Shown piece after piece: positions 34,102 to 55,991 of a stretch of 64,000 bases of DNA. The translations under genes and the position numbers were made by a program. The notes beneath the pieces were generated by a model. The model did not search any database and was not told the origin of the DNA. It saw only the letters and a list, made by a program, of their open reading frames with translations. The stretch comes from Halobacteriales archaeon (lineage in GTDB: Archaea; Halobacteriota; Halobacteria; Halobacteriales; SKSH01): NCBI GenBank assembly GCA_007118145.1, contig SKSD01000015.1, positions 75,268-139,267 on the forward strand, read 5' to 3'. Positions within the stretch are counted from its first letter, which is position 1. Each line of letters begins with the position of its first letter.

Positions 34102-35265
34102 TCAGCTGAATGAGGCGATACCGGTGAGATCCTCACCAAGGATGAGGGTGTGGATATCGTGTGTACCTTCATAGGTGTAGACTGTCTCCATATTGACCAT
34201 GTGACGGATTGGAGAGTAAGACAGCATGATACCGTTGCCACCGAGCATCTCTCTCGCGATGCGCGCCTGGTCTCTCGCCATGCGAACGTTGTTGCGTTTG
34301 GCCATCGAGACATGCTGCGGTCTGAGGTCACCACGTTCTTTGAGCTCTGCGAGGCGATAGGAGAGCAACTGCCCGGTCGTGATCTGCGTTGCCATCTCTG
34401 CGAGCTTATCCTGTTGGAGTTGGAACCGGGCGATCGGGCCGCCAAACTGCTCGCGTTCGAGTGCGTACTCACGCGCTGTTTCGAAACAATCCCTTGCGGC
34501 ACCGACCGCACCCCAGGCGATCCCATAGCGTGCCTGTGTGAGACATGATAACGGTCCTTTCATACCCTCGACATGCGGGAGGACGTCCTCCTCGGGGGCG
34601 TACACATCGTTCATCCCAATCTCACCGGTGACCGATGCACGTAGCGATAGCTTACCCTCGAGCTTGTTCGTCGACAACCCATCTCGGTCGGATTCGACGA
34701 GGAATCCTCGAACGGGGTGCTCTTCTGCCGATCGGTCGCGCGCCCAGATGACACAGACATCGGCGATCGGTGAGTTCGTGATCCAGGTCTTCGAGCCGTT
34801 GAGGACGTATCCATCACCATCGCGCACGGCGTACGACTCCATCCCAGCCGGGTTCGACCCATGGGCGGGCTCGGTGAGACCGAAGCAACCGACCGCATCA
34901 CCGGTCGCAAGGGCGGGAAGCCAACGTTCCTTCTGCTCAGCTGAACCGTACGCATGGATTGGGTACATCACGAGTGCACCCTGGACAGATGCCATCGAAC
35001 GGACGCCCGAGTCACCAGCCTCGAGTTCCTGCATCAAGAGCCCATAGCCCTTCTCAGAGATATTCGGCAGGCCATACCCATCGAGATTCGGGGCATAGAA
35101 TCCGAGCTCGCCCATCTCGTCGATCAGCTCCATCGGGAAGGTACCGTCCTCGAAATGCTCCTCGATATCTGGCTTGATACGTTCAGCGACGAACTCTCGG
35201 GCCGTCTCGAGGATCATCCGCTCCTCTTGGTTGAGATCCTGTTCCAAGTCGACGTAATCGAGCAT
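34102..35265 (-). CDS. gcdH: Glutaryl-CoA dehydrogenase (decarboxylating)
   Basis: This acyl-CoA dehydrogenase (387 residues) converts glutaryl-CoA to crotonyl-CoA and carbon dioxide. It is more specific than a generic family member: the Arg that binds the distal carboxylate is present (Arg89 in SGVRSMASVQ), and the catalytic base is Glu366 in TYEGTHDIHTLILG, both as in mammalian GCDH. Long stretches such as ARYGIAWGAVGAA and RNNVRMARDQARIAREMLGG also follow GCDH. ATG 35265 is preferred to the TTG at 35292. It lies 75 bases after the monooxygenase/reductase gene, linking it to aromatic degradation. Confidence 0.9.
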   Translation of the reverse strand: MLDYVDLEQDLNQEERMILETAREFVAERIKPDIEEHFEDGTFPMELIDEMGELGFYAPNLDGYGLPNISEKGYGLLMQELEAGDSGVRSMASVQGALVMYPIHAYGSAEQKERWLPALATGDAVGCFGLTEPAHGSNPAGMESYAVRDGDGYVLNGSKTWITNSPIADVCVIWARDRSAEEHPVRGFLVESDRDGLSTNKLEGKLSLRASVTGEIGMNDVYAPEEDVLPHVEGMKGPLSCLTQARYGIAWGAVGAARDCFETAREYALEREQFGGPIARFQLQQDKLAEMATQITTGQLLSYRLAELKERGDLRPQHVSMAKRNNVRMARDQARIAREMLGGNGIMLSYSPIRHMVNMETVYTYEGTHDIHTLILGEDLTGIASFS

Positions 35266-35340
35266 ACACGGTGGCTTGACGGCGACGGACAAATACCCCG
35301 ACCATCTGCAACGGACGACGTGATGGATTGTGCAGGTGAC

Positions 35341-37506
35341 TCACTCGGGAAGTGGTGTGAACGTACAGAGATCGGCCCGTCCCGCACCGACAAGCGTGTT
35401 CACCTCATCGTACGTGGTGACGTAGTTGGTGGCGAGCACCGGGATATCGAGTTCGTTCCTGAACGATTCGGTAAAGTCTGCGAGCACGGTCGGGTCGTAC
35501 TTCGGCCGCTCACGTATGGTCGCCTGCCCGGCGACGAGTGAGAGAAGATCACAGCCATGTGATTTGAGTGCGGCACCAACCTCCTGTGCCTCGTAGGTCT
35601 TGAAGCCATTGAGATTCCAGTCGGTCGACTGCAGGGTGACACCGACCGGTCGCTCATCTGGCCATACCGAACGCACCTGGTCGAATATCTCCAGGGGGTA
35701 GCGCATCCGGTTCTCGAGCGAGCCGCCATATACGTCGTCGCGCTCGTTACTCAGAGGTGAGAGATAGCTCGAGAGGAGGTACCCATGTCCGGCATGCAGT
35801 TGAACCATATCAAAGCCCGCCTCGACCGCCCGCTCGGTGGCGGCCGAATATGCCATCCGTACCGCCTCGAGATCTTCGTCGTCCATCTCCCTCGGGACGT
35901 GACCCCCGGGTGTGTATGGTATCGCCGACGGTGCGAGCAATTCCCATGCCTGTGTGTTGGGCAGCGGTCGGTCGAGACCGTGATGGCGGTCGCGCATCGC
36001 ACCTCGACGTCCGGCATGGACGAGATGGATACCGATGCTGATATCGGCCGATGCAGTGATCGACTCGATCGCCTCGGCCCATGCGTCGACATGTTCGTCG
36101 GTATAGATACCGGGGGTGCCAGAGGTAATACGACCCTCTGGGCTGACCGCCACAGGATCGGTCAATAACAGTCCAGGACCTCGGCTACCTCGTTCGATCA
36201 ATGCCTCCAGATAGGTAGACGACGGCATGCCATCATCGCTCGATGAGGTCGGCTGTTCGGTGATCGCGATGCGGTTCGAGATGGTGAGATCGCGTAACTT
36301 CAGAGGTTGATGTAAGGGTTGATTGGCAGCGATGGGAAGCGATTCGGCAGGTGTACCATCACCCGGTGTGTATTGATAGCGTTGGAACCACCGGTCAAAT
36401 CCATCGGCATACGACACATCTCGCATCTTCAGACTGTCGTACGAGATTCGACCGCTTCTGGTCAGCAAGTTGTATGCGAACTGCTGTGGTGGCAAGTCCC
36501 AGTAGCGCTCGACGTTCTCGAAGTACTGCTGGCTTCGATCAGCAGCTGCCTGTAACGCCTCGACGCGGGGTCGACGCTCCTTCTCGTACCAGTTGAGTGC
36601 GGCATCGACATCCTGACCGTGCTCTCGAAAGCCCTCAAGCAAGGCAATCGCGTCCTCCATGGCGAGTTTCGTCCCTGACCCGATGGAGTAGTGAGCTGTG
36701 TGGACTGCATCACCGAGGAGGACGACCCGATCTTCGATCGACCACCGCCGGCAGTTGACGACTGGGAAGTTACGCCACGAGTAGAGCTTCGCCAACAGGT
36801 CGTACCCCGCGAGATGGTCGTCGAAGAGGTCCTCGAAGTATGCCAACGCTTCTGTCTCACCAAGCTCATCCATGTCGGCGTTCGTCCAGGTCTCCTCGGT
36901 GCACTCGACGATGAACGTGCTCTTGGTACCTGGATAGGCATGTATCCGCCAGAGACCGTGTTCATTCTCGCGGAAGATGAAGGTGAACACATCGAACGGT
37001 TTCTCAGTCCCGAACCATGCGAACTTGGCCGAGCCGGTCTCGATCCGTGGTTGGAAACGTTCCTCGTAGGCATCCCGAACGACGCTGTTGAGGCCATCGG
37101 CACCGATGAGCAGATCGACCTCATCTGCGAGTTCGGTTGGTTCCTCAATGGTCGTCTCATGATGCATCTCGACCCCGAGGTCTCGACATCGATCCTGGAG
37201 GATAGCGAGGAGATCGCTTCGCATGATACCGGCGAAGGTGTGTCCCCCACACCGGATATGCTCGTCCTCATAGAAGATATCTATCGGATCCCATCTGACG
37301 AACGTATCTGTGAGACGTTCATGTGTCTCGTGGTCTGCCTCGCGGAGATTGCTCAACGTTGCATCAGAGAAGACCACTCCCCAACCGTAGGTGTTGTCGG
37401 CCGGGTCTCGTTCGTAGACGGAGATGTCCCACGAGGGATACTCCTTTTTCAACAGGAGACTGGCGTAGAGACCTGCTGGGCCACCGCCGACGACTGCGAT
37501 CTTCAC
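35341..37506 (-). CDS. Anthraniloyl-CoA (2-aminobenzoyl-CoA) monooxygenase/reductase, two-domain flavoenzyme
   Basis: The 721-residue protein fuses two flavin domains. Residues 1-370 form an FAD monooxygenase: VVGGGPAGLYASLL, DNTYGWGVVFSD, LIGADGLNSVVRD and LLGDAVHTAHYSIGSG. Residues 380-721 form an old-yellow-enzyme barrel: LRDLTISNRIAIT, QLHAGHGYLLSSYLSPLSNER and DVYGGSLENRMRYP. This architecture is that of 2-aminobenzoyl-CoA monooxygenase/reductase of aerobic bacteria, which hydroxylates and then reduces the ring; salicylyl-CoA 5-hydroxylase is the close alternative. Three GTG codons could start it; 37506 matches homologues, while 37515 overlaps the LLM stop as GTGA. Confidence 0.85.
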   Translation of the reverse strand: MKIAVVGGGPAGLYASLLLKKEYPSWDISVYERDPADNTYGWGVVFSDATLSNLREADHETHERLTDTFVRWDPIDIFYEDEHIRCGGHTFAGIMRSDLLAILQDRCRDLGVEMHHETTIEEPTELADEVDLLIGADGLNSVVRDAYEERFQPRIETGSAKFAWFGTEKPFDVFTFIFRENEHGLWRIHAYPGTKSTFIVECTEETWTNADMDELGETEALAYFEDLFDDHLAGYDLLAKLYSWRNFPVVNCRRWSIEDRVVLLGDAVHTAHYSIGSGTKLAMEDAIALLEGFREHGQDVDAALNWYEKERRPRVEALQAAADRSQQYFENVERYWDLPPQQFAYNLLTRSGRISYDSLKMRDVSYADGFDRWFQRYQYTPGDGTPAESLPIAANQPLHQPLKLRDLTISNRIAITEQPTSSSDDGMPSSTYLEALIERGSRGPGLLLTDPVAVSPEGRITSGTPGIYTDEHVDAWAEAIESITASADISIGIHLVHAGRRGAMRDRHHGLDRPLPNTQAWELLAPSAIPYTPGGHVPREMDDEDLEAVRMAYSAATERAVEAGFDMVQLHAGHGYLLSSYLSPLSNERDDVYGGSLENRMRYPLEIFDQVRSVWPDERPVGVTLQSTDWNLNGFKTYEAQEVGAALKSHGCDLLSLVAGQATIRERPKYDPTVLADFTESFRNELDIPVLATNYVTTYDEVNTLVGAGRADLCTFTPLPE

Positions 37507-37511
37507 CCGTG

Positions 37512-38366
37512 TCACCTCCACTCGTTCTTGAGAATCCTCTCGAGACGGTCGTACTGTGACATATCAGCGACAGTCGGGAAGAGGATGAGTTCGTCACATC
37601 CCGCGTCCTCATAGCCTCGCACGAACTGGAGCACCTCCTGAGGCGTCGTCAGCAACCCCTCGGCGATTCGTTCGGCGAACGGGCCGGTGAACTCGTAGTA
37701 ATCGAGCAGGTATGCACGGCCGAGTTCGGCTGCCTCCTCACCTAGGGCGAAGTAGCCATGCCCCCAGAGGGCTGGTTCGCCAGGGCGGCCCGACTCCTGC
37801 CACGCGGCACGTGCCTTCTCAGCCTGGCGTTCGAACGCACGTGGTGGTCCACCACCATGGATGTAGCCATCACCATATCGACCAACCCGCTGGAACGTGG
37901 GATCGCTTTGTCCACCGATGAGCAGTTCAGGACCACCCTCCTGGACCGGTTCGGGGCCGATATCGTCACCCTCCCAGATCTCACGTAACCGGTGAAGCTG
38001 TCTCGAGAAGCGTCGACCACGGTCGTTGAAACTCGCACCGGCCTCCTCGTAATCCTCACGTCTGGCACCAAGTGCGAGGCCGAGGGTCAATCGACCATCT
38101 GAGATGCTATCGACAGTAGCAGCCTTCTTCGCCAAGAGTGCATCACTTCGCAGCGGGCCAGCGACAATCGAGGTAGCGAGGCGAACCTCCTCGGTCACAC
38201 CTGCACACGCCGCCAACGTGGCCAGTGGATCAGTACCATGGTACACCAGTCGATCGAATACACCTACGCTCGTGAACGGACCATCGTCAGCCCGTCTCGC
38301 CCACGACAACAGCATGTCACCGTCGGCAGCATCGAGCGTGTTCGGTAGGCCGATTCCGACACGCAT
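37512..38366 (-). CDS. LLM-class (luciferase-like) flavin- or F420-dependent oxidoreductase
   Basis: The 284-residue protein is a luciferase-like monooxygenase-family barrel: MRVGIGLPNTLDAADGDMLLSWARRAD at the start, TDPLATLAACAGVTEEVRLATSIVAGPLR, then DSISDGRLTLGLALGARREDYEEAGASFNDRGRR, and PELLIGGQSDPTFQRVGRYGDGYI. Members use FMN or F420 and act as oxygenases or dehydrogenases. It is the first gene of a minus-strand operon; its stop lies within a few bases of the anthraniloyl-CoA monooxygenase start, so it most likely acts on the same pathway. The ATG at 38366 is supported by a TATA-like element 32 bases upstream. Confidence 0.84.
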   Translation of the reverse strand: MRVGIGLPNTLDAADGDMLLSWARRADDGPFTSVGVFDRLVYHGTDPLATLAACAGVTEEVRLATSIVAGPLRSDALLAKKAATVDSISDGRLTLGLALGARREDYEEAGASFNDRGRRFSRQLHRLREIWEGDDIGPEPVQEGGPELLIGGQSDPTFQRVGRYGDGYIHGGGPPRAFERQAEKARAAWQESGRPGEPALWGHGYFALGEEAAELGRAYLLDYYEFTGPFAERIAEGLLTTPQEVLQFVRGYEDAGCDELILFPTVADMSQYDRLERILKNEWR

Positions 38367-38454: not shown

Positions 38455-39672
38455 TTGCAACCTATCAAGGTTCTTAACGCCAACCCGTGTAATTGGGATA
38501 TGGGACAGATACGTGGGGACGTTCTCGATGCCCACGGTATCACCTCGTCACGTGGTTTTCTCCCAGAGAGCGATCCGCTTCGAGCCTTCGAGACGGGCGA
38601 TCACGACCCGGATATCGCCCGCTACCTTGAGGAACTCGATCGTCTCGGTGACGCACTGCCTGAGCTACTCGACGATGGCATGTTCCGGGAAGTGGGTGAT
38701 GCACTTCCATCACCACCGCCGGGTACGTTCGACGAACTCTCAACAGAGGAGGTTAAACGGCTGTGTCTCCTCGCCTCGTTCTTCGCCAGTGGGTATGTCC
38801 ATCAGACCGGTGACGGGGAGGTAGATCGACTTCCGGCTGGTATCGCCATCCCGTTGTATCACAGTTCGAAACGGATCGGGAGGAAACCAATCGCTGCGTA
38901 CGACACGATCTGTCTGCGTAACTACGAGCTGATCGATGACACGCATGGATTCCAAGTCGAGAACATCCGGCCGGTTCAGCGCTTTACCGACCTCGCCGAT
39001 GAGACCTGGTTCGTGGCCATCCACGTCGCGATCGAGGCGGCAGCAGGAGAGGCATTGACGGCCTGTGCATTGGCGCAGGAGGCGATCGAAGCAGGAAACC
39101 CTGCGGAGGTACATTCGGCGCTGTCGGATATCGAGACATCGCTCGAGAGACAGACGGCAATCATGCAACGGATGACCGAAGGGAACGACCCGCAGGCATT
39201 CGTCGACGGGTTTCGGCCGTACTACCAGGGTTTCGATGGTATCGTGTTCGAGGGTGTATCAGCGATAGCGAGTGAGCCGCAACATCTCAGAGGTGGTTCG
39301 GGAGCGCAAAGTTCTGCCCTGCCATCGATCGATGCCGCGTTCGGTATCGATCACGAGCAGACCGAGTTGATCGACAAACTGGACGACATGCGCAGTTACA
39401 TGCCGGCGGTGCACAGAGAGGCAATCGAGGCGTTTGCTGACGGCCCTGATATCCTTGCATTCGTCCAGTCAACTGGTGATCCAGAGCTGGTCGATGCATT
39501 CAATCGGTGTATCGATGGCATCGTGGCGTTTCGTGAGGTACATTTCACACAGGTAGCACAGTACATCCGTGAGCTTGCTGAGGATGCCACGGGGACTGGT
39601 GGCACGGATTACATGACCTTCCTACCGAAGATGAAACACGAGACCGAGCGACAGCGGTTACCAATGCCATGA
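38455..39672 (+). CDS. Indoleamine/tryptophan 2,3-dioxygenase of the IDO family
   Basis: This 405-residue protein belongs to the haem-containing indoleamine 2,3-dioxygenase family, which opens the indole ring of tryptophan to N-formylkynurenine. Family marks are RGFLPESDPL near residue 24, IPLYHSSKRIGRKPIAAYD, LRGGSGAQSSALPSID, DDMRSYMPAVHREAIEAF, and the C-terminal GTGGTDYMTFLPKMK. The proximal haem histidine should be His363 in REVHFTQVAQYI. The start is TTG with a strong Shine-Dalgarno site. It heads a plus-strand cluster with a hydrolase, a CoA ligase and CoA-transferase genes. IDO is rare in archaea to my knowledge. Confidence 0.9.
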   Translation: MQPIKVLNANPCNWDMGQIRGDVLDAHGITSSRGFLPESDPLRAFETGDHDPDIARYLEELDRLGDALPELLDDGMFREVGDALPSPPPGTFDELSTEEVKRLCLLASFFASGYVHQTGDGEVDRLPAGIAIPLYHSSKRIGRKPIAAYDTICLRNYELIDDTHGFQVENIRPVQRFTDLADETWFVAIHVAIEAAAGEALTACALAQEAIEAGNPAEVHSALSDIETSLERQTAIMQRMTEGNDPQAFVDGFRPYYQGFDGIVFEGVSAIASEPQHLRGGSGAQSSALPSIDAAFGIDHEQTELIDKLDDMRSYMPAVHREAIEAFADGPDILAFVQSTGDPELVDAFNRCIDGIVAFREVHFTQVAQYIRELAEDATGTGGTDYMTFLPKMKHETERQRLPMP

Positions 39673-39742: not shown

Positions 39743-40681
39743 ATGAGCGACACGTACGAAGCGCTAGACCCAGAGGCAGCGACGATTATCGAGGAGTTCC
39801 AATCGGTTGGCCTACCACCGTGGCATAGCCTCGATGTCGAGAGTGCGCGCACTCTCGAGGACGAGCTCTTCTCAGCAGGGAGTGGGCCAGACATGGCCTC
39901 GGTCCGTGACATGGCCATTGAGCACGATGGTAGGTCTGTTGAGATTCGTGTGTTTCGACCGACCGAATCCCAGCATGGGACACTCGTCTTTTTCCACGGT
40001 GGAGGGTGGACGCTAGGTACACTCGATTCAGCAGACGATATCTGTCGCAACCTGGCAGCTCGTGGACGATGTCTCGTCATCTCGGTCGATTACCGACTCT
40101 CCCCTGAACACCCGTTCCCCGCAGCGCTTGACGACGCCATCACGGTGGTCAACTGGGCGAGTGCGTACGCTGATACCGTCGGCGGTGATCGTTCGAGACT
40201 TGGAGTGGCTGGGACGAGCGCAGGAGGTAACCTCGCCGCAGCAACAGCGATCTACGCTCGTGAGCTATCTCTCGACGTGCAGGGGCAGTTCCTCCTCTAC
40301 CCGATCACCGATTGTCGTTTTGATACTGAATCGTACCAGCAGTTCGCCGACGCACCACTGCTCTCGTTGGCTGACATGCGTTGGTTCTGGGAGAACTATC
40401 TCAGGAGCCCCGTGGATGCATATCATCCCTTCACATCCGTCCTGCGAGCGCCTGATCTGACCGGGGTGGCTCCAGCAGTCGTCTTAACCGCCGGTATCGA
40501 TGTCCTTCGCGATGAGGGTATCGCGTATGCTGAGCGGTTATCGACATCAGGCGTCGAGGTCGACCACCACCATTACCCCAGCTTACCCCACGGCTTTCTC
40601 AGCCTCGCCGACCGGGTTGATCGTGCCGATGAGGCGATGGACCACCTCGGTGTGAGTATCCAGACACGACTGAGAGATTGA
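39743..40681 (+). CDS. Alpha/beta hydrolase, HSL type; candidate N-formylkynurenine formamidase
   Basis: The 312-residue protein is a hormone-sensitive-lipase-type hydrolase. The oxyanion motif HGGGW is at residues 85-89, the nucleophile Ser159 is in GTSAGG, and the triad is completed by Asp253 (AGIDVLRDEG) and His283 (LPHGF). It follows the dioxygenase by 70 bases on the same strand, the position expected for a kynurenine formamidase, and formamidases of animals and yeast have this fold; the assignment is inference. The TGA stop is the first part of the insertion-element end (TTGACATCC), so the original C-terminus may have been altered. Confidence 0.8.
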   Translation: MSDTYEALDPEAATIIEEFQSVGLPPWHSLDVESARTLEDELFSAGSGPDMASVRDMAIEHDGRSVEIRVFRPTESQHGTLVFFHGGGWTLGTLDSADDICRNLAARGRCLVISVDYRLSPEHPFPAALDDAITVVNWASAYADTVGGDRSRLGVAGTSAGGNLAAATAIYARELSLDVQGQFLLYPITDCRFDTESYQQFADAPLLSLADMRWFWENYLRSPVDAYHPFTSVLRAPDLTGVAPAVVLTAGIDVLRDEGIAYAERLSTSGVEVDHHHYPSLPHGFLSLADRVDRADEAMDHLGVSIQTRLRD

Positions 40682-41032
40682 CATCCTCCCCGCCCTGCAG
40701 GTCGAGGATTCCTTCGTGGGACAGCAAGGCAGTTCCATCGACCCGACTCCACCTCGGTGGTCGAGTCGCCATCCGACGCAGGGGTGCCTATTATTCGCGG
40801 TGGCATCAACCCAACTCCAATTTTTGTCTGAAGTGCGTACGTTACGATTGCCCTCAGGCATGGTACACCCGTTGTCAGTGTTCCTGTTTCTGGATTCTTC
40901 TCCCAGCTAAAAGATGGGGCATTATCCGCAAGTTTCGGTAATTCACCGCACCTTGGGTTTTTCCCGATCGGGTCTGTCGTGGCTCCATTGCGTATACGCT
41001 TAACACCCTTCAGGGTCGATTCACTCCTAAGC
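40678..41032 (-). mobile_element. Decayed IS200/IS605 (TnpB-type) right end, copy 2, and gap
   Basis: The plus strand begins TTGACATCCTCCCCGCCCTG, identical over 20 bases to copy 1 at 33093, then CAGGTCGAGGATTCC. Read on the minus strand, the next 100 or so bases give a frame whose end (DGDSTTEVESG, then RNPRPAGRGGCQ) resembles the poorly conserved tail of haloarchaeal TnpB proteins; no catalytic RuvC motif survives. The remainder of this 351-base gap to 41032 has no gene I can support, apart from the promoter of the CoA ligase. The outward-facing guide segment would be the 3' end of the hydrolase gene. Confidence 0.45.
40997..41006 (+). promoter_or_regulatory. TATA-like box of the CoA ligase gene
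   Basis: ACGCTTAACA lies about 30 bases before the ATG at 41033, suggesting that the ligase and CoA-transferase genes have their own promoter despite following the dioxygenase and hydrolase. Confidence 0.4.
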
Positions 41033-42688
41033 ATGCAGGGAAACGTACCGACTGAGTATCTCCCAGACGAATCGGAGCCGGATATCTTCTATGCGCTGCC
41101 AGAACTTCACTATCCGGAGTCGCTCAACGCTGCGTATGAGATGGTTGATCGACATGTCGACCACGGACTGGGTGACAAACCTGCCATCATCTTCGAGGGC
41201 GAGACCATCACCTACCAGGAGCTTCAGACCAGGGTCAACAAGGTGGCGAACGCATTGCTCAAACTCGGGGTTGAGCCTGGTGACAGAGTCTACGTCCGTT
41301 TCCCGAACCGACCAGAGTACGTCGTAAGCTGCCTCGCCACCCAGAAGCTCGGTGCAATCACCGTCCCGTCGATGAAGCTGTTGCGTGCCAAGGAGATCAG
41401 TTACGTGATCGATAATGCCGAGGTGAAACTCGCCATCGTCTACGATGAGCTGCTTGATGAGGTGGACAAGGCACGAGCTGAACACGGTCTCGAGAGCCTG
41501 AGTGACATCGTTGTGGTCGGTTCGACGGGTGTCGAGCACGACCATCATACACTCGACGAGTTGCTCGAGGACGTCGATGCTGACCTTCCCGAACCCGATA
41601 CACACCGAGACGACCTGGTTATGATCGCCTATACCAGCGGTACCACCGGTCGACCGAAGGGTACCGTCCACACCCATAGGCAGATGATGGCCATCTGTGA
41701 CGGGTATGCCAACTACTGCCTTGACGTGCAGGTGGATGACGTCTTCACGAGCAACGCACCGATCGCCTTCACGTTCGGGTATGGTCTCCTCGTCGCATTC
41801 CCCCTCAGGTTCGGTGCCACGACGGTCATCATCGAAAATCCAACGCCGAAGAAACTCCTCGACGCAGTCCAGGATCATGACGTGTCTGTCCTCGGGTCGA
41901 TCCCAACGGCGTACAATCAGATGTTCTCAGAGCATGCCGACCTGATCGAATCGTACGACCTGGACTCGCTTCGTTGCTGTGTCAGTGCAGGTGAGCCACT
42001 CCCACCGAAGACGTTCGAGCAGGTGAGAGACCACTTCGGGGTTGAACCGATGGATGGGATTGGGTCGACAGAGATGCTACACATCTTCATCAGCCACCGC
42101 ATCAAGGATGACGAGATCGACCCGACGGCGACTGGGAAGCCTGTACCGGGCTATGAGTGTAAGGTGGTCGACCCAGACACGTACGAGGAACTGCCCCGGG
42201 GCGAGCCTGGCCTCCTTCTGGTCAGAGGGCCCACAGGGGTGACCTACTGGAACCGACCTGAGAAACAAAATGAGGTGGTCATCGACGGCTGGAGCCATCC
42301 TGGTGACATGTACATCCACCGTGAGGACGACCGGTTCGAGTATGTCTCACGTAGCGACGATCTGATCATCACGGGTGGGCACAACGTACCTGGACCTGAG
42401 GTCGAGGATGTCCTTCTCGAACGTGATGAGGTCTTCCAGGCGGCTGTAGTCGGCAGTCCAGATGAGGAACGGGGTCAGATCGTCAAGGCGTTCATCATCC
42501 TCAACGACGGGTTCGAACCCTCTGACGAACTTACGCGTGAGTTGCAGGACTTCGTCAAGGAGTCCATCGCCCCGTACAAGTATCCCCGCGAGGTCGAGTA
42601 CGTGGACGACCTGCCCACGACGGAGACCGGGAAGATACAACGTCGGAAACTTCGCGAGCGAGAGAAGGAGAGGAAGCTCGGGGTGTAG
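41033..42688 (+). CDS. AMP-forming benzoate/2-aminobenzoate-type CoA ligase
   Basis: The 551-residue enzyme is an ANL-superfamily acyl-CoA synthetase. The P-loop TSGTTGRPKGT is at residues 201-211 with HTHRQMM after it; DGIGSTEMLHIFISHR near residue 342 is the motif typical of the benzoate-CoA ligase branch; SRSDDLIITGGHNVPGPEVE and the catalytic-lysine region LPTTETGKIQRRKLRE near the end are also present. Given its neighbours, anthranilate is the most likely substrate, giving 2-aminobenzoyl-CoA, with benzoate or another aryl acid as alternatives. The ATG at 41033 has a TATA-like box about 30 bases upstream. Confidence 0.87.
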   Translation: MQGNVPTEYLPDESEPDIFYALPELHYPESLNAAYEMVDRHVDHGLGDKPAIIFEGETITYQELQTRVNKVANALLKLGVEPGDRVYVRFPNRPEYVVSCLATQKLGAITVPSMKLLRAKEISYVIDNAEVKLAIVYDELLDEVDKARAEHGLESLSDIVVVGSTGVEHDHHTLDELLEDVDADLPEPDTHRDDLVMIAYTSGTTGRPKGTVHTHRQMMAICDGYANYCLDVQVDDVFTSNAPIAFTFGYGLLVAFPLRFGATTVIIENPTPKKLLDAVQDHDVSVLGSIPTAYNQMFSEHADLIESYDLDSLRCCVSAGEPLPPKTFEQVRDHFGVEPMDGIGSTEMLHIFISHRIKDDEIDPTATGKPVPGYECKVVDPDTYEELPRGEPGLLLVRGPTGVTYWNRPEKQNEVVIDGWSHPGDMYIHREDDRFEYVSRSDDLIITGGHNVPGPEVEDVLLERDEVFQAAVVGSPDEERGQIVKAFIILNDGFEPSDELTRELQDFVKESIAPYKYPREVEYVDDLPTTETGKIQRRKLREREKERKLGV

Positions 42689-42751: not shown

Positions 42752-43645
42752 ATGACTGTAGACAAGCGAATCACCCTCGAGGAGGCCATCGAGAGAATCG
42801 AGCCAGGCGAGTCGATCGCCCTCGGGTTGGCACTTGAGCACGCGATCCCATTCGCCGCGGGACACGAGTTGATTCGACAAGGCACCGATGAGCTCACACT
42901 GATCGGTCCCATCAGCGATATCCTGTTCGACCAGTTGGTCGGTGCAGGTCTCGTGTCGAATATCCAGGCGGCGTGGGTTGGTAATGTCAGTATCGGCTCG
43001 GGCTATCGCTTCCGTGAGGCCATCGAGGGAGACGAGCTCACCATCGAGAATCACTCGAATCTCAGCATCGCCACAGCGCTCGAAGCTGGGCGACTTGGCC
43101 TTCCATCGATGCCGACCAGATCACTCCTCGGCAGCGATATCCTCGAAGAGGGTCCGTTCGAGACGTACTGTGACCCGGTTGATGGCGAGGAACACGTGCT
43201 CGTCCCGGCGATCACACCCGACTGGGCGATCGTCCATGCCCAACGTGCGAGTCCTGCGGGTGATGTCCACCTCTGGGGGAACGTCGGCGTCACCCCCCAG
43301 GCAGTTGGGGCTGCGAGTGATGTCATCGTCACGGTAGAGGAGATCGTCGATCCGAGCGTCATCAAGAGCGACCCGAGTCGTGTGGCGATCACACGCGAGC
43401 AGGTGACCGCCGTCGTCGAGTGCCCATTCGGGGCACATCCATCTCCGCTGGCGGGATATTATCGGCGTGATCACGGGCATTACATCAGTTACGGCCAGCA
43501 CACGAAGACACAGGGAGGATACGATACATGGGTCAAGGAATGGATCTTCGATATCGAGGACCGTGCGGCGTACACCGAACGCCTCGATACATCTCTCGAA
43601 CCCGTATCGGCCGATCGAGCCGCGGAGGTGAGGTATGGACGCTGA
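42752..43645 (+). CDS. Class I CoA-transferase family, subunit A (GctA/IpdA-like)
   Basis: The 297-residue protein is the alpha-type subunit of a glutaconate CoA-transferase-like enzyme. It has the N-terminal nucleotide-fold start TLEEAIERIEPGESIALGLALEHAIPFAAGHELIRQG, the middle ALEAGRLGLPSMPTRSLLGSDIL, and VPAITPDWAIVHAQRASPAGDVHLWGN. The same family includes IpdA, part of a hydrolase that opens an oxo-cyclohexene carboxyl-CoA ring in steroid breakdown. Its last 11 bases overlap the subunit B gene. Which activity this pair has cannot be read with certainty. Confidence 0.82.
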   Translation: MTVDKRITLEEAIERIEPGESIALGLALEHAIPFAAGHELIRQGTDELTLIGPISDILFDQLVGAGLVSNIQAAWVGNVSIGSGYRFREAIEGDELTIENHSNLSIATALEAGRLGLPSMPTRSLLGSDILEEGPFETYCDPVDGEEHVLVPAITPDWAIVHAQRASPAGDVHLWGNVGVTPQAVGAASDVIVTVEEIVDPSVIKSDPSRVAITREQVTAVVECPFGAHPSPLAGYYRRDHGHYISYGQHTKTQGGYDTWVKEWIFDIEDRAAYTERLDTSLEPVSADRAAEVRYGR

Positions 43646-44435
43646 TCAGTCGTCTGCAACCGAAGGGACCGAATACACACCGCAAGAGCTCATGGTCGCC
43701 GCTGCCGCACGGGAGATTTACGATGGCGATACCGTCTTCGTCGGGATGCGACTGCCGATGCTGGCGTACCAACTGGCCGTCTCGACTCATGCACCGAACG
43801 CATTGGCGCTGTTTGAGAGTGGCGTCATCCGCGACGATCCGGCAGGGACGTTCATCCATACGATGTGTGATCTACCCAACCAGTTCGAGGCAGTCGCGAC
43901 GACCGACATGCTCGCGGTGATGGGTCGGTTGCAACGCGGTGATGTCGACCTGGGCTTTCTCGGGACAGCTGAGATAGACCGGTTTGGCAACCTCAATACC
44001 ACGAGGGTCGGACCCTCCGATGATCCGATCAGGCTACCTGGCAGTGGTGGAGCCTGTGATATCGCCTGTCTTGCCCATGAAACGGTCGTCCTGATGCGAC
44101 ACGAACCACGCCGGTTCGTCGACCAGGTGACCTATGTTACCAGCCCAGGCTATCCCACAGATGGCTCAGGTGCTGATGGACGGCCGAGCCCGGGAGCCGG
44201 ACCCCGTCGGCTGGTTACATCGAAGGCCACCTTCGGATTCGACGATTGCGGTGAGTTGTACCTACGAACGGTCCACCCCGGTGTCGATCCACAGAGCATC
44301 CATGACGACATGCCGTGGGAGCTCAAGACTCGAGAGACGGTAGATGAAGAACCGGTCGGTCAGACTGCCCCACCAACCCCCGACGAACTCGAACTCATCC
44401 GGACGTTCGATCCGGAGGGATTCTGGACGAGTTAG
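43635..44435 (+). CDS. Class I CoA-transferase family, subunit B (GctB/IpdB-like)
   Basis: The 266-residue partner of the preceding gene has ELMVAAAAREIYDGDTVFVGMRLPMLAYQLA, then LALFESGVIRDDPAG with Glu61 at the position of the catalytic Glu of glutaconate CoA-transferase, then GFLGTAEIDRFGNLNTTRVG and RLPGSGGACDIA. The C-terminus (LRTVHPGVDPQSIHDD, TPDELELIRTFDPEGF) is standard. The Glu supports true CoA transfer; IpdB-type ring hydrolases lack it as far as I know. The TAG stop overlaps the stop of the convergent hydratase gene. Confidence 0.82.
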   Translation: MDADQSSATEGTEYTPQELMVAAAAREIYDGDTVFVGMRLPMLAYQLAVSTHAPNALALFESGVIRDDPAGTFIHTMCDLPNQFEAVATTDMLAVMGRLQRGDVDLGFLGTAEIDRFGNLNTTRVGPSDDPIRLPGSGGACDIACLAHETVVLMRHEPRRFVDQVTYVTSPGYPTDGSGADGRPSPGAGPRRLVTSKATFGFDDCGELYLRTVHPGVDPQSIHDDMPWELKTRETVDEEPVGQTAPPTPDELELIRTFDPEGFWTS

Positions 44436-45196
44436 GGCCACTCTGGTTCGCGGCGTTCGAGTTGTGCGAGGACGCCCTCGCGATAATCAGGCTCGTTTCG
44501 AGCTGCATCAAGAGCGATCGTCTCGAGATATGAGCGCGCAGCACGGGGCGACATCTCTGCGGTAGCATACAGTCCGTCTTTCAGTTTACGCATCACCCTC
44601 GGGCTCATGCCAACGAGTCGTTCGGCCACCCTGTCGACTTCGGCATCAAGCGCTGACTCCGGAACGGCTCTGGCGACGAGGCCGATCTCAGCTGCCTCCT
44701 CACCGGAAATCGTCTCACCTGTAAGCATCATATCGACCGTTTTCGTCAAGCCAATCCGGGACATCAACATCGGTGGTGAGAAATGGTTGACGATCCCGAG
44801 ACCCACCTCGGGCTGTCCAAGTTGAGCGTCGGTTGCGGCGACCGGGATATCCGTGTGTAACATCAAGTCGAACCCCCCGCCGAGAGCGTAGCCATCGACC
44901 CTGGCGATCGTCGGTTTTCCGAGGTGCATCATGGCCTCGAACAGATCCTCCCAGGTGTCGGTGAACGGCTGCAGGGCGAAGTCCCGCTCTCGCACCTCCT
45001 CGATATCGCCACCGGCGCAGAATGCGTCACCCTCGCTCTGTATGACCACCACACGGACATCATCATTATCGCGATATGACCTGATACGATCGGTGATCTC
45101 GAGCTTCGTCGGAAGGTCGACAGCGTTGAGTTTCTCTGGTCGCTGTAGTGTCACCCGTGCGATACCATCCACGATCTCAAACCCGACGTTCACCAT
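44432..45196 (-). CDS. Enoyl-CoA hydratase/isomerase (crotonase) family
   Basis: The 254-residue crotonase-fold protein begins MVNVGFEIVDGIARVTLQRPEKLNAVD. The oxyanion-hole segments are FCAGGDIEEV and YALGGGFDLML; in the second the usual catalytic Glu of GGGCEL is Asp, while the other Glu is kept in QPEVGLGIV. Altered Glu residues are common in crotonases with other reactions, so besides hydration of an enoyl-CoA a ring-opening reaction like that of 2-ketocyclohexanecarboxyl-CoA hydrolase is possible. It lies 62 bases after the SDR gene on the same strand, and its start gives the family N-terminus. Confidence 0.86.
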   Translation of the reverse strand: MVNVGFEIVDGIARVTLQRPEKLNAVDLPTKLEITDRIRSYRDNDDVRVVVIQSEGDAFCAGGDIEEVRERDFALQPFTDTWEDLFEAMMHLGKPTIARVDGYALGGGFDLMLHTDIPVAATDAQLGQPEVGLGIVNHFSPPMLMSRIGLTKTVDMMLTGETISGEEAAEIGLVARAVPESALDAEVDRVAERLVGMSPRVMRKLKDGLYATAEMSPRAARSYLETIALDAARNEPDYREGVLAQLERREPEWP

Positions 45197-45258
45197 GTTA
45201 CCGAAGGCAAGAAGCTGAGGTATTGTAGCTACGTCGAAATCATGTCGACTCGTCTCAC

Positions 45259-46023
45259 CTAGACGGTCAACCCGCCGTCGACGACGATACACTCACCGGT
45301 GATGAACGAGGCAAGGTCACTCGCGAGAAACACAGCCACGTTCGCCACCTCCGCTGGTGACCCGAACCGACCCGCAGGTGTCTGATCGAGGATCCGTTGA
45401 TACAGCTCATCCATGTCCATCACGGGTTCAGTGAGATCTGTCTCGATATAGCCAGGTGCGATGGCGTTGACCCGTACCGAGGGTGCCCAGTCCATGGCCA
45501 TGCTCTTGGTCAGCCCCACGAGTCCATGCTTTGAGGCGACGTAAGCATGTTGGCGCTTAACACCGACGAGTCCGGCCGTGCTCGCAACGTTGATGACCGA
45601 ACCATCACGTTCGAGCAAGTGTTCACCCGCCATGTGCGAGCAGTTGAACGCACCGATGAGGTTGACAGAGATGGGGCGTTCGAACGCTGTCAAATCGACG
45701 GTCTCGGGTGTACCCATCGCTTCTACCGGGTTGATACCTGCATTATTCACCAGGAGATCGAGGTGGCCAAACTCATCGATGACGGAATCGACCAATGACT
45801 CGACCGCCTCCACATCGGTCACATCGGTTGGGTGACCGATCGCACGCACCCCCTCGTCCGCCAGGGATGAGACAGCCACATCGACGTCGTCAGCGGTGCG
45901 TGACACAGGGACGACATCGGCGCCTGCCTCACCAAGGGTTCGAGATATCTCCCACCCAATACCTCGGGTCCCACCGGTCACGATCGCCACCCGGCCCGAG
46001 AGGTCGATCTCAATACTGGACAC
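45259..46023 (-). CDS. Short-chain dehydrogenase/reductase (SDR)
   Basis: The 254-residue protein is a classical SDR: cofactor motif TGGTRGIG at residues 16-23, LVNNAGI near residue 90, catalytic Ser in VASTAG, and YVASK with Tyr and Lys near residue 160, followed by NAIAPGYIETDL. The C-terminus GECIVVDGGLTV is typical of the FabG-like group, so an acyl-CoA-linked 3-hydroxy/3-oxo step is a good guess. The start is GTG at 46023. It forms an operon with the crotonase and is divergent from the RidA-dehydrogenase-MaoC operon. Confidence 0.88.
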   Translation of the reverse strand: MSSIEIDLSGRVAIVTGGTRGIGWEISRTLGEAGADVVPVSRTADDVDVAVSSLADEGVRAIGHPTDVTDVEAVESLVDSVIDEFGHLDLLVNNAGINPVEAMGTPETVDLTAFERPISVNLIGAFNCSHMAGEHLLERDGSVINVASTAGLVGVKRQHAYVASKHGLVGLTKSMAMDWAPSVRVNAIAPGYIETDLTEPVMDMDELYQRILDQTPAGRFGSPAEVANVAVFLASDLASFITGECIVVDGGLTV

Positions 46024-46160: not shown

Positions 46161-46586
46161 ATGTCGGCTTCAATGCAACGAGAAGTACTCGTCCCTGAAG
46201 GGTTGGCTCCACCACGAGGGTTCAACCACGGTATCGCGGTCGAGGGGGGTAAGTTGGTCTTCCTCGCAGGACAGGATGCCTCCGGGCCAGATGGAGACAT
46301 CGTCGCTCCTGGTGAACTTCTCCCACAGTTCGAACAGGTATTGGAGAACCTACGGGCGGTCGTCGAGGCGGCTGGAGGCTCGAGTGAGGACATCGTCAAA
46401 CTGAACATCTTCGTGTCCGATGCGGATGAGTATCGGGCGAACCTCGCTGCACTCGGCGAGATATTCCAACGCTATATCGATACCTACCCAGCCATGGCCC
46501 TGTTCGAGGTGAGTGGCTTTTTCAAACCCGGTGCGGTCGTCGAACTCGAGGGTTTCGCCGTGGTCGATCCAGAACAGGACGGATGA
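46161..46586 (+). CDS. RidA-family enamine/imine deaminase, island copy
   Basis: The 141-residue protein has the RidA fold: GFNHGIAVEGGKLVFLAGQDASGPDGDIV, FEQVLENLRAVVEAAGGSSEDIVKLNIFVSD and a C-terminal MALFEVSGFFKPGAVVELEGFAVVD. It differs from the copy at 2465-2857. It starts an operon with an acyl-CoA dehydrogenase only one base downstream. The ring product of anthraniloyl-CoA monooxygenase carries an enamine, so hydrolysis of that enamine with release of ammonia is an attractive but unproved role. ATG 46161 and ATG 46173 are both possible. Confidence 0.83.
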   Translation: MSASMQREVLVPEGLAPPRGFNHGIAVEGGKLVFLAGQDASGPDGDIVAPGELLPQFEQVLENLRAVVEAAGGSSEDIVKLNIFVSDADEYRANLAALGEIFQRYIDTYPAMALFEVSGFFKPGAVVELEGFAVVDPEQDG

Positions 46587-46587
46587 C

Positions 46588-47739
46588 ATGATCGAACAGC
46601 TGTCACTCGAAGAGCGTCACAAACGCCATCGCGAGCGTGTCCGCGAGTATTGTGAGCAACACGTCGAGCCCGTGATCGAACAACACGAGCGTGACGGGAC
46701 GTTCCCCGAGGGACTGGTGAGATCGATCGGTGAAGCTGGGTTAACCGGTGTGCCATACCCGACAGCGCACGGTGGACTCGGCGCTGACTATCGCTCCTTC
46801 GCGATCACAGTCGAGGAGTTCGCCCGCTCGTGGAAACTCGTCGCAGGGGCGATCAATATCGCGTGCGGTCTTGTCGGATACCCGATCGCCCAATTCGGCA
46901 ACGATGAGCAACGAGATGAGTGGTTGACCTCCATCTGCACAGGAGAATGGATCCCTGCCTTCTCGCTCACCGAACCCGAGGCTGGGAGCGATGCGGCAGC
47001 GATCTCCACGACGGCCACAAGAGATGGTGATGAGTGGGTGCTCAACGGAGAGAAGATCTGGACGACACATGGTTCGGTCGCAGACTTTCTCACCGTCGTT
47101 GTACGCACCGATGAGACGACAGATCACCGTGGTATCAGCCTGATCGGTGTCCCCAATCCACACGAGATAGATGGTTTCTCTGTCGAACGAGATATCCCAT
47201 GTATGGAGGGTGCTGCTGCGATCGAGAGTGAGCTTCGTTTCGATGATGTCCGGGTACCTGTCGGTCACCTGATCGGCGAGGAGGGCCATGGCTTCCGGTA
47301 TATCATGGAGGGACTCGATATAGGCCGTATCGGGACGGCTGCACAAGGCGTGGGGATCTCCCAGGGTGCCTTCGAGGTGAGCAGTACATACGCCGACGAA
47401 CGTGAGCAGTTCGGTCAGCCAATTCGCGACTTCCAGGGGATCGGGTTCAAGCTTGCGGATATGGCATCCGCTACCGAGGCAGCTCGATTGCTCACCCTGG
47501 CAGCTGCAGACCAACGTGACCGTGGTGAACGTGTCACCAAACGCGCAGCCATGGCGAAGACGTTCGCCACCGACGTGGCGATGGAGGTATCAACCGAGGC
47601 AGTGCAGGTACTCGGTGCTCGGGGGTACTCACACGATTACCCGGTCGAGCGGTACATGCGTGAGGCGAAAGGCACCCAAATCTACGATGGCACCAACGAG
47701 ATCAACCGACTCGTGATCGTTAACCGCATGTATGACTGA
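46588..47739 (+). CDS. Acyl-CoA dehydrogenase
   Basis: The 383-residue flavoenzyme is a standard acyl-CoA dehydrogenase: AFSLTEPEAGSDAAAISTTA near residue 125, WVLNGEKIWTTHGSVADFLTVVVRT, ADEREQFGQPIRDFQGIGFKLADMA near residue 267, and the catalytic-base region YDGTNEINRLVIVNR at the end, where the Glu position of YEGT is Asp in YDGTNEI; related enzymes keep activity through this or a neighbouring acidic residue. The start ATG 46588 lies one base after the RidA stop. It probably desaturates an alicyclic or dicarboxylyl-CoA intermediate. Confidence 0.88.
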   Translation: MIEQLSLEERHKRHRERVREYCEQHVEPVIEQHERDGTFPEGLVRSIGEAGLTGVPYPTAHGGLGADYRSFAITVEEFARSWKLVAGAINIACGLVGYPIAQFGNDEQRDEWLTSICTGEWIPAFSLTEPEAGSDAAAISTTATRDGDEWVLNGEKIWTTHGSVADFLTVVVRTDETTDHRGISLIGVPNPHEIDGFSVERDIPCMEGAAAIESELRFDDVRVPVGHLIGEEGHGFRYIMEGLDIGRIGTAAQGVGISQGAFEVSSTYADEREQFGQPIRDFQGIGFKLADMASATEAARLLTLAAADQRDRGERVTKRAAMAKTFATDVAMEVSTEAVQVLGARGYSHDYPVERYMREAKGTQIYDGTNEINRLVIVNRMYD

Positions 47740-48178
47740 CCAAGGGACAATGCAGTACTTCGAGGATTTGTCAATCGGTGATTCGTGGGAACCCGGCTCA
47801 GTGACGTTCACCAAGGAGGAGATCATCGAGTTTGCAAGGCGGTACGATCCCCAACCGTTCCACCTCGATGATACCGCTGGTGAACGACATTTCGAGGGGG
47901 TCATCGCAAGCGGATGGCACACGGCTGCAGCATGTATGCGACCATTCGCTGAGGCGGTGTTGACTGATGTGGCCATCATAGCTGCCCTCGGCATCGAGAA
48001 TCTCGTCTGGAGGCGAGCGGTGAGACCGGGAGATACGTTAGCTATCAGTGTCACGTTACACGACAAGCAGCCATGGGACGATGGTCGCGGGCAGGTCACC
48101 TTCAAGCTCGTCGCCAAGAACCAGGCCGACGAACGGGTTCACTCGCGGTTGGATCACGTGCTGGTCGAACGTGCATAG
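47732..48178 (+). CDS. MaoC-like hot-dog-fold hydratase
   Basis: The 148-residue protein has the hot-dog fold of MaoC/(R)-specific enoyl-CoA hydratases: MQYFEDLSIGDSWEPGSVTFTKEEIIEFARRYDPQPFHLDD contains the catalytic Asp-X4-His dyad (DPQPFH), followed by SGWHTAAACMRPFAEA. It overlaps the end of the acyl-CoA dehydrogenase gene by eight bases, so the two are translated together and should act in sequence, adding or removing water after desaturation. Confidence 0.86.
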   Translation: MTDQGTMQYFEDLSIGDSWEPGSVTFTKEEIIEFARRYDPQPFHLDDTAGERHFEGVIASGWHTAAACMRPFAEAVLTDVAIIAALGIENLVWRRAVRPGDTLAISVTLHDKQPWDDGRGQVTFKLVAKNQADERVHSRLDHVLVERA

Positions 48179-48297: not shown

Positions 48298-49524
48298 ATG
48301 CCGGACTCCACATCCAACCAATCGACGGAAACTGGTATACGACGACGGTCATTCCTCGCTGCAGCAGGTCTGTCTGCTACAGGGATGTTTGCGGGGTGTC
48401 TCGGTGGTGACGATGATGACGTAATCACGATCGGAGCGATTCAGCCGTTCACCGGCTCCTTCGCCCCGTGGGGCGAGGCACACTCCGCCGGATTGAACTT
48501 CGCGATCGACGAGGTCAACGAGAACGGTGGTGTTCTCGGGATGGAGGTGCAGGTCACCGAATCGGATACGGGGAGTGATCCGAGCGAGGCAGACACCATC
48601 TTCAGACAGCAGGTGGAGGAACAACACGCTGTTGCGATCACCGGTGCTGTCTCGAGCGACGTCGGTGTTGCTACACGACAGACAGCCGAGGATCTCATGG
48701 TGCCGAACATCCTGCATATGGCAGGATCACCCGGTGTGATCGGCCGGGATACACGGTTCGTCTTCCGAGTTGGTTCACACTCGAACGTGACGGACGGGAT
48801 GGCCATCCGCGGTCTCATCGAAGACCAAGGGTATACCAATGTCGCTGCGATACACGCTGCCTACGAATGGGGTCGAAGCTTCGAGGCAGCGTTGGGGCAG
48901 CTACTTCCCGACGGTGTTGAACTCCATGAGGCTGAAGCGGCGGTCGCTGAGAGCGATTTCACCCCCTACCTCTCAGGCTTCCCGGACGATATCGAACTAA
49001 TCGTCGCTACTGGCCATCCACCTGGCTCCGTTGCGATCCATTCCCAGGCACTCGAGCTTGGGTTCGAGCACGACTTCACCACCGGCGCCGGCGTGCCACC
49101 TGGGACGTTGTACGGTGGTCTCGGTGAGGACGCAGCGACCTTCGCACATCAACACGTCGCAGATCCGTTTTCCGATGACTTCATCGATGTGGCGAGCAGG
49201 TACGCCGAACAAGAGGGTGGCCGGTTCGATACCCACGAAGCATACGGGTATGTCGCTGGGCAGATCATCACCGACTCGATCGAGGCCGCCGGGTCGACTG
49301 ATCCGATCGACATCGCAGATGCGATCAGAGACAACTCACACGACACATTACTCGCCAACCCGATCGAGTACGCTGAGTGGGGTGAGGTGGATAATCTCAT
49401 TCACATGTTATCGACGTTTGAGTTCAGTGAACCACCGTATTACGAGGGCGGTGAGTGGCAACTCGAAAATCAGTTCAGAAGCGACCCACTCGACGCGTTC
49501 GACCCTGGTGAGTGGGACTTCTAG
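48298..49524 (+). CDS. livK: Liv-type ABC transporter substrate-binding lipoprotein
   Basis: The 408-residue protein is a periplasmic-binding-fold receptor of the branched-chain amino acid/amide (HAAT) family. The N-terminus holds a twin-arginine signal RRRSFL at residues 15-20 and a lipobox FAGC with Cys34 as the lipidated residue, the usual haloarchaeal arrangement. The mature part has VITIGAIQPFTGSFAPWGEAHSAGLNFAIDEVNENGG and VAITGAVSSDVGVATRQTAEDLMVPNI. The ligand is not visible; in this setting an aromatic amino acid or acid is as likely as leucine. The transporter genes follow, in mixed orientation. Confidence 0.92.
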   Translation: MPDSTSNQSTETGIRRRSFLAAAGLSATGMFAGCLGGDDDDVITIGAIQPFTGSFAPWGEAHSAGLNFAIDEVNENGGVLGMEVQVTESDTGSDPSEADTIFRQQVEEQHAVAITGAVSSDVGVATRQTAEDLMVPNILHMAGSPGVIGRDTRFVFRVGSHSNVTDGMAIRGLIEDQGYTNVAAIHAAYEWGRSFEAALGQLLPDGVELHEAEAAVAESDFTPYLSGFPDDIELIVATGHPPGSVAIHSQALELGFEHDFTTGAGVPPGTLYGGLGEDAATFAHQHVADPFSDDFIDVASRYAEQEGGRFDTHEAYGYVAGQIITDSIEAAGSTDPIDIADAIRDNSHDTLLANPIEYAEWGEVDNLIHMLSTFEFSEPPYYEGGEWQLENQFRSDPLDAFDPGEWDF

Positions 49525-49567
49525 ACCCCTGTACTGACTGGATTCCGCTATTTGTGAACCGTCGAGA

Positions 49568-50263
49568 TTAGCGGAGATAGGTTCGGATGATCCGATTGTC
49601 ATCCAATAACGCATCCGCATCATCCTCAGCGATAATCCTACCATTTTCCAAGAGGTACGCACGATCAGCGAGTTCTAACGCCTCGTTGACGTGTTGTTCG
49701 GTCAAGATCACGGTCACCTCCTCGCTGATCGCCTCGACTTTCTCGAACACACGCCGTGTAAGCATCGGCGCGAGTCCAACTGAGAGCTCATCCAGTGCCA
49801 GCACCTTCGGCTGTGCCATCAGTCCCCTGCCGATGGCCAACATCTGTTGTTCGCCACCGCTGAGCGTCCCAGCTTGTTGCTTTCGACGCTCTTGTAACAC
49901 CGGGAAGAGTTCGAACACATCGTCCATGATCCGCTGGCGTTCTTCTCGGTTCGTGTACGCACCCATCTCGATGTTCTCGATGACGGTCATCTCGGTGAAC
50001 AGGTTTCTTGCCTCAGGTACGTGCACGAACCCCTGTCGGACGATATCTTCCGGGGATAGTGTGTTGATATCCTCTTCAAAGAGCGTGACCGAACCTGATT
50101 TCGGCTTGATGAGACCGGAGAGCGTCTTCAGCAACGTGGTCTTGCCAGCACCGTTCGATCCGACGATCGCAACGATTCCGTCTGATTCGGTCACCTCCAT
50201 CGAGATGTCCCACAAAACCTGAAGATCACCGTACGCAACGCTCAGCTCATCGACAGTGATCAT
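49568..50263 (-). CDS. livF: Liv-type ABC transporter ATP-binding protein LivF
   Basis: The 231-residue ATPase has Walker A GSNGAGKTTLL near residue 35, the signature LSGGEQQML near residue 133, and Walker B KVLALDELSVGLAP. The wording GLAPMLTRRVFEKVEAI and the short C-terminus place it in the LivF branch. Its start overlaps the end of livG as ATGA (50260-50263). It is transcribed away from livH/livM although their products form one complex at the inner face of the membrane. Confidence 0.93.
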   Translation of the reverse strand: MITVDELSVAYGDLQVLWDISMEVTESDGIVAIVGSNGAGKTTLLKTLSGLIKPKSGSVTLFEEDINTLSPEDIVRQGFVHVPEARNLFTEMTVIENIEMGAYTNREERQRIMDDVFELFPVLQERRKQQAGTLSGGEQQMLAIGRGLMAQPKVLALDELSVGLAPMLTRRVFEKVEAISEEVTVILTEQHVNEALELADRAYLLENGRIIAEDDADALLDDNRIIRTYLR

Positions 50264-50982: not shown

Positions 50983-51010
50983 GCGTCGGATGTTTTGACA
51001 CTCAGCGCGT

Positions 51011-51020
51011 TATAGTTTTT
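51011..51020 (-). promoter_or_regulatory. TATA-like box of the livG-livF operon
   Basis: The minus strand reads AAAAACTATA about 31 bases before the livG ATG at 50982, within the 142-base gap shared with divergent livH. Confidence 0.45.
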
Positions 51021-51124
51021 GACGTCGGTTGGTCACCAGCTGTGAGATGTTAAGAAAAGCTTAACGGGTTCGGTATCTCATCCATTTTCAGCTGCATGAC
51101 GTTCGAAGTTGGAGTGGTCAGTCG

Positions 51125-55988: not shown

Positions 55989-55991
55989 CCG

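Follow-up and report, generated by a model that had tools for sequence, protein, structure and literature searches.

How could an enzyme of the 2-aminobenzoyl-CoA monooxygenase/reductase (ABM) type work once its reductase half has decayed? The question is raised by a 64,000 nucleotide stretch of contig SKSD01000015.1 (the window), which belongs to a Halobacteriales-type archaeal metagenome-assembled genome (1.72 Mb, 78.7% complete). It carries a gene for a FAD monooxygenase fused to an old yellow enzyme (OYE) fold, directly preceded by a gene for a flavoprotein of the luciferase-like monooxygenase (LLM) class. On balance, we lean towards the view that the locus serves aerobic degradation of tryptophan via CoA-bound anthranilate, with the LLM protein hydrogenating in place of the disabled OYE domain. 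The coordinates of all features are listed in Table 1.

The fusion gene is a single uninterrupted open reading frame (ORF) starting with GTG. In Pfam, its product matches FAD_binding_3 at residues 2–319 and Oxidored_FMN at residues 398–715. Against NCBIfam PRK08255 (bifunctional salicylyl-CoA 5-hydroxylase/oxidoreductase) it scores 832 bits over 716 positions, the same full-length domain fusion, although this is below the curated cut-off of 1078 bits. Identity with the Arthrobacter protein is about 42%. The kinship with bacterial 2-aminobenzoyl-CoA and salicylyl-CoA monooxygenase/reductases, as proposed in the initial annotation, is supported. In the FAD domain, the motifs are preserved (GxGxxG at 7, DGxxSxxR at 137, GDxxH at 265). 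The AlphaFold model is confident (pLDDT 90.6); its FAD half resembles VioD and its OYE half overlays the Thermus scotoductus OYE with a root-mean-square deviation of about 1.2 Å over some 322 columns. No solved structure of the full fusion was found by sequence search or among the top fold matches.

The initial annotation regarded both flavin domains of the 721-residue protein as intact. This holds for the single ORF and the FAD motifs, but not for the OYE half, which has retained its barrel fold together with H571, H574 and Y576 and has lost its FMN-binding residues and its C-terminal tail. In the alignment with the Thermus OYE, TEQP replaces the SPMC motif, S421 the active-site Tyr and N694 the Gly of the phosphate loop. 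The positions equivalent to Q102, R215 and R308 of YqjM are occupied by H494, T624 and P718. The protein stops at residue 721, where other OYEs have their phosphate clamp (Gly-Arg) followed by a tail. The window protein thus does not contain the FMN-binding OYE reductase site as defined by Q102/R215/R308, the SPM motif and the phosphate loop. In GkOYE, all double mutants of Q102, R215 and R308 were colourless and FMN-free, and a mutant without all three residues (plus Y169F) retained its fold (PMC11233575). We infer that FMN is no longer bound by the fused protein of the window.

The same loss is found in relatives. Among 391 sampled genomes of the class, 21 contain the fusion; they form clade A (12 genomes including the window) and clade B (nine genomes). 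For comparison, 85 bacterial loci were taken from the genome collection and plasmids, and a directed LLM search covered 400 Chloroflexota genomes. Loss of at least two of the three FMN residues is seen in 14 of the 15 proteins of clade A, that of the window among them (all three in 11), in all nine of clade B and in 16 of 17 from LLM-type Chloroflexota, giving 39 of the 41 members of this clade of Haloarchaea and part of the Chloroflexota. The exceptions, L023 and L191, are counted as keeping two of the three; in L023, the only Arg counted stands right at the C-terminal end, where the alignment may have placed it wrongly. All three residues are kept in 82 of 82 other, OYE-intact bacterial relatives. 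The length after the phosphate clamp is 0–11 residues in archaea and a median of 4 (range 0–49) in LLM-type Chloroflexota, compared with 33–78 in other bacteria. In bacteria, OYE is the better conserved half (mean identity 61.6 versus 52.5 for FAD), whereas it is the less conserved one in clade A (57.8 versus 70.4) and clade B (51.2 versus 71.2). Judged from these identities, constraint on the OYE domain is relaxed in both archaeal clades. The His pair and the Tyr are kept in clade A and in Chloroflexota, whereas most of clade B, where the LLM gene is missing, no longer has them. Given their persistence in the former groups, ligand binding by the barrel may have survived.

Two further forms of the protein were encountered. 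L225–L228 are shortened fusions of 577–661 residues with partly deleted OYE domains; three of the four share their stretch with an LLM gene. L229–L231, from Chloroflexota, are FAD-domain-only relatives of 376–384 residues, two of them with an acyl-CoA-ligase-like neighbour.

It is the coupling to the LLM gene that proves central to the locus. The LLM gene ends 5 bp upstream of the fusion gene, the Shine-Dalgarno sequence of which (GGAGGTGA) overlaps the LLM stop codon, so that the two genes are tightly coupled, as had been noted initially. Of the 12 clade A genomes, 11 have an LLM orthologue (68–82% identity in relatives) next to the fusion, whereas the nine clade B genomes lack it; it accompanies the fusion on seven of seven haloarchaeal plasmids. 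Only two of the 85 bacterial loci have it, some of the remainder being short contigs on which its absence is not always observable. Both are from Chloroflexota, and they are also the only ones of the 85 with lost FMN residues, excluding one sequence cut by a contig end. In the 20 Chloroflexota LLM loci inspected, the fusion directly adjoins the LLM gene every time, usually followed by genes for a short-chain dehydrogenase/reductase (SDR), an enoyl-CoA hydratase/isomerase family protein (ECH), RidA and an acyl-CoA dehydrogenase (ACAD). The earlier impression that such coupling is foreign to bacterial clusters therefore stands for the other phyla sampled but not for Chloroflexota, where the pair is common. 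In ten Chloroflexota genomes with an OYE-intact fusion, no close LLM gene adjoins it; one has a distant adjoining LLM gene (29%), two are cut just upstream, and only one has a match at E ≤ 1e-60 anywhere in the genome (46%). In none of the OYE-intact relatives was the conserved LLM partner found next to the fusion.

In trees of the FAD domain only, both haloarchaeal clades and the LLM-type Chloroflexota form one clade (support 100/99 and 100/97). Together with the LLM distribution, this makes FMN loss and LLM pairing look like a single ancestral change; in clade B, the LLM gene looks to have been lost again. The Chloroflexota operons resemble the archaeal loci in having the LLM gene directly upstream, a degenerate OYE domain and the SDR-ECH-RidA-ACAD set downstream. 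They differ in sequence (about 50% identity), and IDO, the gene for indoleamine 2,3-dioxygenase, was not seen in the stretches examined. The archaeal loci add an ABC transporter. The window also adds a CoA transferase pair, of which a counterpart (39%) was seen in only one Chloroflexota LLM operon (L177, 18260–19959).

The LLM protein is the obvious candidate for the reductase of the oxygenated intermediate. Its best profile match is to the F420-dependent LLM oxidoreductases of the Rv2161c type (TIGR03619; 130.6 bits, below the curated cut-off of 166.9 bits), and the closest solved chain is alkanal monooxygenase. The genes cofH and npdG are near the LLM-fusion pair in Natronosalvus halobius, and among LLM-type Chloroflexota, 17 of 19 genomes encode an F420 ligase, compared with 9 of 17 others (p = 0.025). 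On these grounds, the LLM protein is predicted to use F420.

The genetic context points to tryptophan as the source of the substrate. IDO of the window scores above the Pfam gathering threshold (PF01231, 232.7 bits), and a kynureninase is encoded on another contig of the same genome (G000:C26; TIGR01814, 345.6 bits, cut-off 246.4). Of the 12 clade A genomes, 11 have IDO, against 8 of 379 others (Fisher p = 1.3e-15, a value which overstates independence because the genomes are related), and kynureninase (KynU) is above cut-off in 11 of the 12. Among the haloarchaeal plasmids of the collection, IDO was found on all seven that have a clade A fusion and on no others. Plasmids of Haladaptatus pallidirubidus and Natronococcus sp. 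CG52 combine IDO, kynU and genes for a CoA ligase, RidA, ACAD, SDR and ECH with LLM and fusion genes. With its aryl-CoA ligase, the window locus likewise shows an anthranilate and aryl-CoA context. The neighbourhood thus points to the hybrid aerobic aryl-CoA pathway suggested initially, the substrate of the fused enzyme probably being anthraniloyl-CoA made from tryptophan. As a separate observation, trpB (tryptophan synthase beta) is located within the tryptophan-catabolic clusters of Haladaptatus, Halomicrococcus and Natronococcus (L062, L063, L064, L065), which is odd for catabolism.

According to the title of Langkau et al. (1995; listed in PMC6221969), the bacterial enzyme carries out oxygenation and hydrogenation at two sites. 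Its product is 2-amino-5-oxocyclohex-1-ene-1-carbonyl-CoA (PMC4539516), or 5-hydroxyanthraniloyl-CoA when NADH is limiting (PMC3534580). In the proposed archaeal route, IDO would open the tryptophan ring, the alpha/beta hydrolase would deformylate the product, kynureninase would release anthranilate and the CoA ligase would convert this to anthraniloyl-CoA. Oxygenation at C5 would follow, catalysed by the FAD domain of the fused protein. In the classical bacterial enzyme, the dearomatised intermediate is then hydrogenated at the fused OYE/FMN site before it re-aromatises. Without FMN, the fused protein is expected to stop at aromatic 5-hydroxyanthraniloyl-CoA unless another reductase intercepts the intermediate. 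In the haloarchaeal version, which would have lost FMN from the OYE site, the adjacent LLM protein may hydrogenate in trans, probably with F420H2, and the FMN-less barrel may be retained as a scaffold, either structural or for holding the substrate. RidA, SDR, ECH and ACAD would process the product further, roles that we assign from family knowledge. A more far-reaching reading, to which we give a somewhat lower probability, is that the two proteins together make up a dearomatising oxygenase-reductase: the LLM protein, using F420H2, would intercept the unstable oxygenated aryl-CoA intermediate of the FAD domain while the FMN-free OYE scaffold docks the LLM protein or holds the substrate. Such an F420-linked variant of aerobic aryl-CoA metabolism would be common to Haloarchaea and Chloroflexota.

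Several observations weigh against a replacement of the OYE site by an F420-dependent LLM protein in a tryptophan pathway. As the LLM profile scores are below the curated cut-offs, the cofactor could be FMN, and the AlphaFold model of the LLM protein, computed from a three-sequence input, is poor (pLDDT 57). Among the LLM-type Chloroflexota, just 8 of 19 genomes have a kynureninase above cut-off, so that anthranilate may have another source in this group. OYE degeneration appears once on the tree, which makes FMN loss and LLM pairing one linked event with no independent replicates. Finally, a genome basal in clade A (G390, locus L033; 82% complete) has a degenerate-OYE fusion, and LLM, IDO and kynureninase genes were not found in it.

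Other explanations have to be considered. The fused protein might be a plain anthraniloyl-CoA 5-hydroxylase which releases 5-hydroxyanthraniloyl-CoA; the LLM protein would be a later flavin monooxygenase acting on the ring (e.g. Baeyer-Villiger or hydroxylating) and an alpha/beta hydrolase would open a lactone. We consider this improbable. The loss of the FMN site agrees with it, as does the behaviour of the bacterial enzyme under limiting NADH (PMC3534580), and LLM proteins include monooxygenases such as the closest solved chain. However, the downstream RidA, SDR, ECH and ACAD are shared with OYE-intact bacterial clusters (43–50 of the 85 loci), which suggests the same non-aromatic product. 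Further, the LLM gene occurs where the OYE site is lost, and its best profile is of the F420 type.

It is rather unlikely that the OYE domain is still a functional reductase which holds FMN via other contacts, the LLM protein performing an unrelated step. The close overlay of the barrel on the Thermus OYE, the persistence of H571, H574 and Y576 in clade A, and the two proteins counted as keeping two of the three residues would be compatible with this. In the window protein, however, nothing is left of the three key FMN residues, the SPM motif, the Gly of the phosphate loop or the C-terminal tail, two such changes abolish FMN binding in GkOYE (PMC11233575), and the constraint on the domain has slackened. 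Least credible is that salicylyl-CoA or another 2-substituted benzoyl-CoA is the substrate and the IDO neighbourhood incidental, as the top NCBIfam name and gentisate-type genes within 20 kb of one of nine clade B loci might suggest, since IDO and KynU accompany clade A almost without exception and the surroundings of clade A fusions yielded neither a gentisate-dioxygenase-like nor a fumarylacetoacetate-hydrolase gene. Nor are there gentisate genes beside the window locus, unlike the expectation for a salicylyl-CoA 5-hydroxylase. The related idea that the OYE domain decays since salicylate needs no reduction was rejected as too simple: the OYE domain is intact in a bacterial cluster with gentisate-type neighbours (L070), and such genes are rare in clade B.

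Two other features of the window deserve mention. IpdAB-type ring hydrolases have a CoA-transferase fold in which IpdB is not known to carry the catalytic Glu of subunit B. The CoA transferase pair was ruled out as an IpdAB-like ring hydrolase, as this Glu is present in its ESG motif and the best match is glutaconate CoA-transferase (1poi). At 54789–57569 on the minus strand, alaS is broken by one in-frame stop (...LYYDDQ*RMSFEAVV...) into ORFs of 525 and 399 residues; either the assembly is wrong here or the alanyl-tRNA synthetase is split.

Table 1. Features of the locus (positions in the window).
Feature	Position	Strand	Remarks
ACAD1, acyl-CoA dehydrogenase	34102–35292	-	Profile match
Fused FAD monooxygenase/OYE-fold protein (ABM-like)	35341–37506	-	721 aa; GTG start at 37506; Pfam and NCBIfam profiles
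Degenerate OYE barrel	35344–36315	-	Residues 398–721; without FMN-binding residues and C-terminal tail; His pair and Tyr retained
FAD (group A monooxygenase) domain	36382–37506	-	Residues 1–375; motifs intact; closest solved fold VioD
Shine-Dalgarno sequence of fusion gene	37512–37519	-	Overlaps LLM stop codon; read directly
LLM-class flavoprotein	37512–38366	-	284 aa; best profile TIGR03619 (F420-dependent), below cut-off; conserved partner of degenerate-OYE subfamily
IDO	38455–39672	+	Divergent from LLM; Pfam PF01231
Alpha/beta hydrolase, hormone-sensitive-lipase type	39743–40681	+	Candidate N-formylkynurenine formamidase; profiles; beside IDO/kynU in relatives
Benzoate-CoA-ligase family protein	40979–42688	+	Candidate anthranilate-CoA ligase; TIGR02262, 389 bits, cut-off 375
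Glutaconate-CoA-transferase-like subunit A	42752–43645	+	Profile match
Glutaconate-CoA-transferase-like subunit B	43635–44435	+	ESG motif with Glu present
ECH	44432–45292	-	Candidate ring-opening or hydration enzyme; profile match
SDR family oxidoreductase	45259–46023	-	Profile match
RidA family protein	46161–46586	+	Candidate enamine/imine hydrolase; profile match
ACAD2, acyl-CoA dehydrogenase	46588–47739	+	Profile match
MaoC-like hydratase	47732–48178	+	Profile match
Branched-chain-amino-acid-type ABC transporter	48298–53025	mixed	Five genes
Substrate-binding protein	48298–49524	+	Pfam
LivF	49568–50263	-	Pfam
LivG	50260–50982	-	Similarity to annotated transporter genes of Natronococcus CG52 cluster
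LivH	51125–51979	+	As LivG
LivM	51976–53025	+	As LivG

With bacterial ABM, the window shares the fusion of FAD_binding_3 and OYE domains, a clustered CoA ligase, RidA and an anthranilate context (PMC4539516, PMC3534580), and many bacterial relatives of that enzyme are also accompanied by SDR, ECH and ACAD. It differs by the loss of FMN residues and C-terminal tail, the LLM partner, the feed from IDO and kynureninase and the archaeal host. As the OYE reductase is not intact, the protein cannot be filed as an ordinary monooxygenase/reductase; with the defining FMN site gone, we class it as ABM-like, a monooxygenase which carries a pseudo-OYE domain and is paired with an LLM protein. The open-access literature yielded no paper describing such a combination; subscription journals were mostly uncovered, so an earlier description may exist. 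If the proposed reading is true, Archaea would gain a kynurenine-to-aryl-CoA route of tryptophan degradation, of which we likewise found no open-access description. A fused reductase would have been disabled and replaced in trans by a flavoenzyme of another class, possibly with NADH/FMN swapped for F420. As oxygenation and hydrogenation would then sit on separate proteins, the two-site mechanism of 2-aminobenzoyl-CoA monooxygenase/reductase would become directly testable.
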